A program made the translations under genes and the position numbers. Below the pieces are notes generated by a model, which was not told the DNA's origin, did not search any database, and saw only the letters and a program-made list of their open reading frames with translations. 64,000 nt of DNA, from contig WRHN01000003.1 of NCBI GenBank assembly GCA_009783235.1, positions 62,001 to 126,000 of the forward strand, read 5' to 3'. Origin of the DNA: Candidatus Saccharimonadota bacterium. GTDB lineage: Bacteria; Patescibacteriota; Saccharimonadia; Saccharimonadales; Saccharimonadaceae. Positions within the stretch are counted from its first letter, which is position 1; the number at the start of each line of letters is the position of its first letter. Below, in pieces: positions 29,619 through 60,722 of the stretch.

Positions 29619-29884
29619 TGATTAGTAAAGAGAACAAAGCGGCCGCCATTGCGAAGACGCAGACGCACAAGCAAGACGTCGGCTCGGCTCACGCGCAAGT
29701 AGCTATTTTGACGGCACGGATTAACGAAATCACTGCGCACTTGAAAGAAAACAAGCACGATAACGGCGCGCGCCGAGGATTGGTTCAGATGGTCGGTCGT
29801 CGTAAGCGGTTGCTAAAATATATCGAGTCGAAAGATTTTAATGAGTACAAAAAAGTCATTGAGGCTCTAGGTTTGCGAAAATAA
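29618..29884 (+). CDS. rpsO: Ribosomal protein S15
   Basis: 88 residues with the typical DVGSAHAQVAILTARINEIT and RRGLVQMVGRRKRLLKYI blocks that bind 16S rRNA helices 20 and 22. Last gene of its operon, followed by a strong terminator. In E. coli it sits with pnp, which is not the case here. Confidence 0.99.
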   Translation: MISKENKAAAIAKTQTHKQDVGSAHAQVAILTARINEITAHLKENKHDNGARRGLVQMVGRRKRLLKYIESKDFNEYKKVIEALGLRK

Positions 29885-29900
29885 TCGAACAAGCACCGTA

Positions 29901-29928
29901 AAAACCTCCCAGTCGGGAGGTTTTTTGT
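29901..29928 (+). terminator. rpsO terminator
   Basis: Stem AAAACCTCCC/GGGAGGTTTT with TTTG following. Confidence 0.9.
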
Positions 29929-29945
29929 CGTCACGCAGACTGTGT

Positions 29946-30078
29946 TATAATGAAAGTGCAAAACTACATTTACATTATTGGTTTACACCGGTAAGGGAAG
30001 AAAAATGCGGCTATTTGCGCAGTTTTCCTTTATCGGGTAAATTGTAGTTTTGCGACTAAGCAGATAGTCGCATTTTTG
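29946..30078 (+). ncRNA. Long-hairpin small RNA or leader attenuator
   Basis: TATAAT at 29946-29951. From about 29958 a stacked hairpin forms. GCAAAACTACATTTAC (29958-29973) pairs with 30037-30053 with one bulge. Directly enclosed is CCGGTAAGGGAA (29988-29999) with TTCCTTTATCGG (30025-30036), 12 pairs. At the tip TGCG (30006-30009) pairs with CGCA (30018-30021). A terminator-like hairpin GCGACTA/TAGTCGC (30052-30071) with ATTTTTG follows. This is either a ~120-nt sRNA or an attenuator controlling the membrane protein gene at 30102. No known riboswitch class is recognised. Confidence 0.6.
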
Positions 30079-30101
30079 TTGCGGCAGAAAGGAGAGAGTT
30101 C

Positions 30102-30284
30102 GTGGGAATTTTAATGTTCTTACTGTGGTGGGCATTTTGTTACTTGTGCATGGTTGTTCTCTGGTCAATTGTTTACGGAATAGCTAAAAGAGAAATTATG
30201 TCACAAAAAGCAGCTGAAGCCATCGGCACGCTGTCTTTGGTGGTCAGTATTGTATTGTACGCACTGGGTTGGAATCTATTTTAA
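30102..30284 (+). CDS. Small two-helix membrane protein
   Basis: 60 residues with two hydrophobic helices (about 2-25 and 40-58) separated by a short charged loop (KREIMSQKAAEA). GTG start with GGAGAG 5 bases upstream; an ATG four codons later (30114) is an alternative. It sits just after the hairpin RNA and just before the split G5-domain gene, perhaps in one transcript. Function unknown. Confidence 0.6.
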   Translation: MGILMFLLWWAFCYLCMVVLWSIVYGIAKREIMSQKAAEAIGTLSLVVSIVLYALGWNLF

Positions 30285-58231: not shown

Positions 58232-59347
58232 CTAGTTACTTTGCGCGACGCCAACTTTGCCGTCTTGGTCTATGTGAATAATTATGAACCTATTTATTTC
58301 GATGCCGGGCCTAACAACACCTGGCGTGTTTACAAATTCCGCATAGACAATTCTCGAGTCGCCCTCGACGGACACGGTGATGTGCGGCTCTATCCCTTTA
58401 TAATCAGGGAAATCTTCGTCGATAATCTTTTTGCTAGCCTCAGTTATTCTCTCGATGTCTTCTTGGGTTGGTTGTACTTTAGTCGAACTATCTCCGTATT
58501 TGAGCACTTCGCCATCGTATGATTCTAGCAGTTCATCTAAAGTTAGCGCATCCAGAGTAGCTTTGTCTATACGCTTAACTTGCTTGATGATCAGCTCATC
58601 AGAATCTGGAATCGTACGTTTAAATGTATTATTTCTACCATCATAACCGGTGATGTAGCTAGCCTCAGAAACAATAACCTCAACGGGTAGTTTAATCCCA
58701 GTGTCAGTATCTCCTAGGAAAATTGGTCGGGCAAAATAACTGCCGTTGTTGATATACAGCAGCCAGGTAATCTCGTTGTCCGGAGGGGTATAAAAAGCGG
58801 TGTATGATGGATATCTATCGTCAGAATCTTTTTCGATGTCCACGCTAGAGAGATATTCGCCATTAATGTCAAAATCAACACTTAGCCAAGTGTCTACTCT
58901 GGCATAATCCACCATGCCGACCAGGTTGAAACCGCGCTCAGCCAGGCAACTTCTGACTTCTCTTACCGTAGGAATATTAGGCGAAGTTTTGGCGTCAAAA
59001 GGTTCGTCCATGGCTGGTTGCTCTGTTTGATTATTTTGACCGCACGGTTGAATCTGGGTGTTACTATAAGGCGGCCGATGGTCGTTAGTCGTTAAATCAA
59101 CGAAGAGCCACACTGAGCCAACGACAAAGGGAAGCATGGCAACAAAGAGCACTATTTTTAGCTGGCGTTGGGACAGTGGCTTGGTGTCGTCCGTGAGCCA
59201 CTCTGTCTGATTTGGCTGGTCTGGCTTTGGTTGGGGTGGCGCTAGTGGTGTCTGATATGGATCACTGTTCGACGCAGTAATCGGCGGCGGCGCTTGATAA
59301 GGCGACTCGGGCTGGAGAGGTTGTTTGGGCTGGTCTTGATCGTCCAT
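58232..59347 (-). CDS. Orphan single-pass membrane protein
   Basis: 371 residues. A Pro/Gln-rich cytoplasmic N-terminus (about 1-60) and one membrane helix (about 64-88, IVLFVAMLPFVVGSVWLFV) are followed by a ~280-residue acidic domain that should be outside. Two Cys flank the start of that domain. No catalytic motif seen. Convergent with radA. Ribosome site AGGAAAAA. Confidence 0.78.
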   Translation of the reverse strand: MDDQDQPKQPLQPESPYQAPPPITASNSDPYQTPLAPPQPKPDQPNQTEWLTDDTKPLSQRQLKIVLFVAMLPFVVGSVWLFVDLTTNDHRPPYSNTQIQPCGQNNQTEQPAMDEPFDAKTSPNIPTVREVRSCLAERGFNLVGMVDYARVDTWLSVDFDINGEYLSSVDIEKDSDDRYPSYTAFYTPPDNEITWLLYINNGSYFARPIFLGDTDTGIKLPVEVIVSEASYITGYDGRNNTFKRTIPDSDELIIKQVKRIDKATLDALTLDELLESYDGEVLKYGDSSTKVQPTQEDIERITEASKKIIDEDFPDYKGIEPHITVSVEGDSRIVYAEFVNTPGVVRPGIEINRFIIIHIDQDGKVGVAQSN

Positions 59348-59420
59348 AAGTTTTTCCTGTTTAATTTGTTTTTCTAAAGATTAACATTATAACATAAATC
59401 AGGATTTGCAGGGCTCGACA

Positions 59421-59449
59421 TTGACATTTTTAAAAAAGCGTGGTAACAT
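59421..59449 (+). promoter_or_regulatory. Promoter of the 59.4-kb structured RNA
   Basis: TTGACA (59421-59426), 17-base spacer, TAACAT (59444-59449). Confidence 0.75.
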
Positions 59450-59455
59450 GTACAT

Positions 59456-59828
59456 TACCGCAGTTCGTAGAGAGAAGCTTACGAAACTGTCGGCTTTGCA
59501 ACCAGCGTCCGGAGGGCCAGCGCAGGATGCAAAATGGTCAAAGTGTTACATGTATGGGTGGTCGGTTTGGCAAAACAAGGTGCGATTTCTCACCTGAGCA
59601 TACTTTCAGTCATGAAACGTGCTCGAAGAGGATTCATCCGAATATCAGGGGCAAAGGACGCATGCGGCGCGAACTTGAACTAATTGGCCCTCAACCTCTC
59701 TCTTGAGTAGGTGCGAATGTGGTAAACCCTCCAGTTGTTAGAACATTCCAAGGCCCGCATGCGTCCGACTAATTTCACGAGGTGAGTTCACCTGAGCCCT
59801 AAAGGGCACAAACGAATTCACCTCTTTT
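59456..59828 (+). ncRNA. Structured noncoding RNA, about 370 nt, unidentified
   Basis: It lies between a consensus promoter and a terminator in a 580-base intergenic region. Helices seen: CAGT-TCGTA (59461-59469) with TACGA-ACTG (59480-59489); TTTGCA (59495) with TGCAAA (59528); and a 12-pair helix GGACGCATGCGG (59656-59667) with CCGCATGCGTCC (59755-59766). The last closes a multi-branch loop holding CTCAA/TTGAG (59690/59703) and GAATGT/ACATTC (59715/59743). An 88-codon open frame across it has no ribosome site. It does not show RNase P, tmRNA or SRP signatures. Confidence 0.68.
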
Positions 59829-59830
59829 AA
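59779..59830 (+). terminator. Terminator of the 59.4-kb RNA
   Basis: GAGGTGAGTTC (59779-59789) pairs with GAATTCACCTC (59814-59824), with an inner GCCC-TAAA-AGGGC hairpin, then TTTTAA. Confidence 0.82.
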
Positions 59831-59889
59831 ATTGGCAAAATGCTGGCAAGTTTGCGGCAAGAATAATAAACAACGGTTAGAAACAATTA

Positions 59890-59930
59890 AACAACCGCCC
59901 CCCCGTGCAAGGGCGGTTGGTTTTTTGTTA
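59890..59930. terminator. Terminator of uppS, bidirectional
   Basis: Stem AACCGCCC/GGGCGGTT with T-runs on both sides (TTTTTT on plus; TTGTTTAATT on minus). Confidence 0.7.
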
Positions 59931-60626
59931 ATTACCACCAAAACGACGCTGGCGACGCGAAAATTCGCCCAGACAATAGTCGATGTCGGCCTCGGTCATG
60001 TCGGGCCAAGTTTTTTCGACAAACAGTAGCTCAGAATACGCCGCGCGCCACAGCATGAAGTTAGAAATGCGCATTTCGCCAGAGGTGCGAACTAATAAAT
60101 CAATAGGCGGAATTTCAGGAAAATATAAGTAATCGGCAAAGCTCGCGACTGTTAGTTGGTCCGCGTCAAGACCCTGATCGATAATTTTCTGACAGGCCTC
60201 AACAATTTCGAGTTGGCCGCCGTAATTGAAGCAAACGCTAAGCGTACCGCCGGTGTTGTCCTTGGTCAGCTCTTCCGCTCGGGCGATGAGTTCGAGCAGT
60301 TTTTTCTTGACGTTTTGCGTGCGATTGCCCAAAAAAACCACGCGAATATTTTTTTTGTGCAACCGTTTAGTCAGACTGCCGCACAGAGTGCCAAAAAGAC
60401 CCATCAAAAAATCTACTTCGTCTTTGGCGCGCTTCCAATTTTCGGTCGAGAAAAGATATAGCGTAACAAAATCGACACCTTTAGCAATAGTAGCTTCGGT
60501 AATGTCTATGGCCACGTCAAGACCTCTGCGGTGGCCCTCAAAAGTCGGCAGTTTTTGCGCTTTGGCCCAGCGCCGGTTGCCATCAACTATATAGCCGACG
60601 TGTTTCGGTATTGATTTTTCGCTCAT
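59928..60626 (-). CDS. uppS: Undecaprenyl diphosphate synthase
   Basis: 232-residue cis-prenyltransferase that makes the C55 carrier for wall synthesis. Conserved blocks: HVGYIVDGNRRWAK (catalytic Asp), GHRRGLDVAIDITE, TLYLFSTENWKR and LLVRTSGEMRISNFMLWRAA. ATG 60626 is preferred: a minus-strand TAAAAT ends 8 bases before it, so the mRNA is leaderless. cdsA and dxr, common neighbours, are absent. Confidence 0.96.
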   Translation of the reverse strand: MSEKSIPKHVGYIVDGNRRWAKAQKLPTFEGHRRGLDVAIDITEATIAKGVDFVTLYLFSTENWKRAKDEVDFLMGLFGTLCGSLTKRLHKKNIRVVFLGNRTQNVKKKLLELIARAEELTKDNTGGTLSVCFNYGGQLEIVEACQKIIDQGLDADQLTVASFADYLYFPEIPPIDLLVRTSGEMRISNFMLWRAAYSELLFVEKTWPDMTEADIDYCLGEFSRRQRRFGGN

Positions 60627-60722
60627 ACGCGTACATTTTAACACAAAATATGCTAGAATAAAAACGTTGCCGGGTGAGCAACAGGTATTATTTATAACAA
60701 ATTATAACAAAAAAGGAGACAA

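Follow-up and report, generated by a model that had tools for sequence, protein, structure and literature searches.

Does the DNA between radA and uppS in this Candidatus Saccharimonadota genome encode an RNA of its own? The source genome comprises 677,568 bases in six contigs and is 97% complete, and the window, the whole 64,000-nt stretch of DNA that was analysed, is part of its contig C3. The original prediction placed in this radA-uppS slot a structured RNA with its own promoter and terminator, either a very divergent housekeeping RNA or an unknown one. The segment at 59456-59828 is present in a single copy in the genome. Its convergent neighbor (59928-60644, minus strand) is a gene that we take, from its sequence and general knowledge, to be an uppS-like isoprenyl transferase, and its divergent neighbor (58232-59347, minus strand) encodes a 371-aa predicted membrane protein that belongs to no Pfam family and has no homologue among 120 family genomes. 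On balance, and with modest confidence, we favor the view that the locus is a noncoding RNA gene, specific to its lineage and transcribed independently.

We found an extended -10 sigma70-type promoter on the plus strand at 59421-59449, composed of TTGACA, 17 nt and the -10 element TGGTAACAT (TAACAT), exactly as originally described and with a TG one base ahead of the -10 in addition, which at motif level gives the locus the promoter of its own that marks a standalone small RNA. The pattern TTGACA-N14-TGnTAnnnT is found at only 24 sites in the 678 kb of the genome, 19 of them intergenic, compared to the 9% of the sequence that is intergenic DNA. Downstream of nearly all other TTGACA-type non-genic sites, no more than about 260 nt away, lies a protein gene on the same strand, ribosomal-protein and chaperone genes among them, and no coding frame lies downstream of the promoter at 59421. 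As read from its sequence, this promoter is credible and is the best evidence for transcription of the locus, which probably makes a species-specific RNA. We infer that RNA polymerase starts near 59456 from this near-consensus element, generating a candidate noncoding transcript on the plus strand (59456-59828, or about 370 nt with an end at the first hairpin). The 371-aa gene has its own putative extended -10, TGTTATAAT, at 59386-59394 on the minus strand, read from the sequence and with no clear -35, and this lies about 30 bp from the candidate RNA promoter in a divergent arrangement; the RNA and the membrane-protein gene may be co-controlled.

The clear terminator of the original prediction proved strong in its hairpin and less convincing in its tail. 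A terminator-like structure on the plus strand at 59779-59828 (-25.1 kcal/mol, z -7.3) has an 11-bp stem with an inner hairpin, the hairpin proper spanning 59779-59824, but its U-tract is short, with four T (TTTT), and a more canonical terminator lies downstream. The latter, a bidirectional intrinsic terminator with an 11-bp stem at 59892-59926, is shared with uppS on the minus strand; the terminator scan lists it in the minus-strand orientation only, and the plus-strand reading shows TTTTTT after the stem. At motif level, the locus thus has the intrinsic terminator of a standalone small RNA in two candidate forms. Transcription would stop either at the hairpin ending at 59828 or at the terminator ending at 59926, for a transcript length of about 370 or about 470 nt.

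We then considered whether the locus encodes protein. Codon log-odds in its six frames range from -0.05 to -0.23, compared to +0.25 (sd 0.10) for genes, and an 88-aa ORF scores -0.28 and has no Pfam match, so that, as for a standalone small RNA, no protein-coding signal is present. The transcript might instead be the mRNA of a small, type I toxin-like peptide with a structured leader, given that a 49-aa ORF (59534-59680) begins with an ATG at 59534 at workable spacing past an AGGA that is held, and would be covered, in the hairpin at 59495-59533. We consider this quite improbable: the 49-aa ORF scores -0.13 against the +0.25 of genes, ORFs of its size are common by chance, the peptide has no PHROG match, the longer 88-aa frame is equally without a Pfam match, and no plasmid homologue was found. 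The toxin-like peptide is therefore unsupported by codon score, PHROG or plasmid searches.

The size of the candidate RNA fits a housekeeping RNA, and we searched 59350-59950 against Rfam. Nothing reached a gathering cut-off, and the Infernal check proposed with the original prediction gave no RNase P, tmRNA, SRP or 6S match at E values up to 10, where only chance-level matches to unrelated families appeared, far below their cut-offs. The genome's bacterial class A RNase P RNA (RF00010) lies on another contig, C1, at 113652-113996 (255 bits), as does its tmRNA (RF00023; C1:118259-118668, 59 bits), and the locus matches neither model and yields no ARAGORN prediction for tmRNA; it resembles these two RNAs in length and multi-helix fold only. 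No match to SRP RNA (RF00169, RF01854; domain IV hairpin) or 6S RNA (RF00013) was found in the locus at E values up to 10. SRP RNA itself went undetected above the Rfam cut-off in the source genome and 25 same-order relatives (26 genomes), with one weak match in G027, in a search that may be insensitive, as Bacillus subtilis gave no match even with the large-SRP model; in these genomes, SRP RNA is divergent or lost, or the search insensitive. This gap would leave room for a divergent SRP RNA at the locus, but a housekeeping RNA is expected to be conserved in relatives and this one is not. With RNase P RNA and tmRNA both located elsewhere in the genome, we reject these two identities for the candidate; divergent SRP or 6S RNA is unsupported, and we regard a very divergent housekeeping RNA of any of the four kinds as extremely improbable. 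The unknown-RNA half of the original prediction fares better, with a real-looking promoter, noncoding composition and no Rfam match.

Folding the segment produced several local structures on the plus strand. A 5' hairpin at 59458-59493 (fold of 59456-59493: -13.2 kcal/mol, z -3.5) is followed by a second one at 59495-59533, interrupted by A/A mismatches and a bulged CCA (fold of 59494-59534: z -1.9), by two adjacent hairpins at 59578-59624 (fold of 59578-59626: z -3.0) and, at 59656-59766, by a domain (fold of 59655-59771: z -3.6) in which a perfect closing helix of 12 bp surrounds two smaller helices. In this helix, GGACGCATGCGG at 59656-59667 pairs with CCGCATGCGTCC at 59755-59766 with no mismatch. 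When the 375-nt segment was dinucleotide-shuffled 300 times, just 2 of the shuffled sequences contained a perfect stem of at least 12 bp. Both the 12-pair helix and the several smaller helices of the original prediction are thus recovered by folding, and the transcript would fold locally into these hairpins and the 12-bp-closed domain. The whole segment (59456-59830) has a fold z of -3.3, a value carried by the terminator hairpin and the 12-bp domain; locus tiles without the terminator hairpin have z values of -0.5 and -0.7.

We set these values against those of 180 tiles of 300 nt (each strand) cut from the 59 long intergenic regions of the same genome, which include some rRNA, tRNA, tmRNA and leader regions. 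The background tiles have a mean z of -1.8 (sd 1.9), and 21% of them reach -3.25, making the fold of the locus ordinary against intergenic DNA of its own genome. Because a fifth of the background folds as well and the terminator-less tiles are weak, single-sequence folding cannot carry the claim of an RNA, and it is a poor guide here since the long intergenic regions of this genome on average out-fold shuffled sequence; a review likewise stresses the limits of single-sequence folding (PMC8250186).

Relatives offered little to compare. A blastn search of the locus against 394 family genomes, none of the same genus, returned no convincing homologue, and a covariance model (R1) built on the 12-bp domain matched its own copy alone across the 394 family genomes, the rest of the source genome and 644 kb of its nearest relative (G003; UppS 77% and RadA 80% identical), leaving no structural paralogue within the source genome. 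The comparative search suggested with the original prediction therefore turned up no homologue, and the conserved structure or sequence in relatives that would mark a standalone small RNA was not found among the 394 family genomes. The predicted fold is supported by one sequence, with no comparative support for any helix. Weak blastn matches in other genomes had E values above 1e-4, and the translated ones fall in unrelated sequence; phage and plasmid searches with blastn gave no match, and an exact 18-mer search of viral contigs gave two, about the chance expectation. A search for closer relatives by way of UppS found distant matches only, the best at 50% identity in a Candidatus Saccharibacteria genome. 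Against 746 kb of G003, blastn queries from the source genome recovered RNase P RNA (81% over 175 nt), tmRNA (81-88%) and another conserved RNA (73% over 143 nt) as positive controls, and nothing for the candidate locus.

These comparisons bear on the main rival explanation, in which the locus is non-functional spacer, a variable slot produced by gene turnover in which a promoter and the uppS terminator were kept and which may be transcribed but is unselected. The radA-uppS slot of G003 holds three unrelated ORFs, marking it as a variable slot, and 25 of the 59 long intergenic regions of the source genome are likewise without a match in G003; the locus is conserved nowhere searched and its fold is ordinary. 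Just past the first terminator hairpin, a 37-nt stretch at 59829-59865 (plus strand) is 86% identical to the 3' end of a membrane-protein gene in another family genome, G006, whose product is PsbP_2-like with a PsbP_2 match below the Pfam cut-off. The stretch codes for IGKMLASLRQE-stop, the match to the C-terminus of the G006 gene reading KMLASLRQ, then one residue and the stop, and it has an E value of 8.9e-6 within one genome, or about 0.004 over 394 genomes, which suggests that a gene may once have ended here. Against the spacer explanation, no promoter class of the genome is stronger than the one seen here, whose persistence without use would be unexpected, and neither the 12-bp stem nor the hairpin at 59779 is at chance level. 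We judge unselected spacer a serious possibility, at about one chance in three.

The reading as a noncoding RNA gene is supported by the intergenic-type promoter without a coding frame, the two terminator-type hairpins, the rare 12-bp stem, the fold z and the lack of an Rfam match. It is weakened by the lack of a homologue, the absence of the locus from G003, helices that comparison does not support, an ordinary fold and the possible gene remnant. If the RNA acts at all, it would most likely do so as a standalone small regulatory RNA, by base-pairing or by binding protein. With lineage-specific bacterial intergenic sRNAs it has in common a near-consensus promoter of its own, an intrinsic terminator, noncoding sequence, an intergenic position and fast turnover, although this candidate is larger than a typical bacterial sRNA. 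In a bolder version, which appears unlikely, the locus would encode a genus-specific structured RNA of about 370-470 nt that belongs to a new class and whose architecture around the 12-bp-closed domain is under selection; it would lack an Rfam counterpart and serve a role particular to this parasitic or epibiotic lineage. If transcribed and conserved among strains, the locus would be an example of a reduced genome gaining private noncoding RNAs in variable slots.

The weak match in G006 adjoins a structured intergenic RNA of about 450 nt (L002:870-1325, minus strand; fold z -5.2) that has its own promoter, TTGACA-17-TATATT, and no match in Rfam 15. By blastn, several genera share this RNA (homologues in L166-L173, L176 and L205-L234), and its 3' domain clearly covaries, with pairing in 98.6% of cells and 20 two-sided changes compared to 6.2 in shuffles, partner-sliding controls being far lower. 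A covariance model of the family (R2) found it under strict filters in 44 of 394 family genomes and 24 of 61 genera, and with filters off in several more genomes, G003 included, near the tmRNA gene. The source genome has one copy, at C1:119419-119552 (L150:19419-19552; 59 bits). Members of the family usually have tmRNA nearby and, downstream of them, an operon that encodes small membrane proteins together with a type IV secretion coupling-type ATPase; they possibly form a new class of leader or standalone RNA. The candidate RNA of the window is not a divergent copy of it by this model, as R2 finds nothing there even at E values up to 10.

Other loci of the source genome also drew attention. 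Many of its long intergenic segments are well folded, several being long 5' leaders that end in AAAGGAG-type ribosome-binding sites, and one strongly structured segment within the window (29838-30137, plus strand; z -5.5) precedes a small gene and combines a terminator with long inverted-repeat hairpins. A CRISPR-like array at L153:797-1558 (C1:160797-161558) contains 11 repeat units evenly spaced 66 nt apart, and a 187-nt segment similar to its flank occurs about 8 kb away, at C1:169822-170121, with 86% identity. The 23S rRNA gene (L150:7327-11487; C1:107327-111487) is 4161 nt long compared to a 2925-position model, indicating insertions of more than 1 kb in the form of an intron or intervening sequence.
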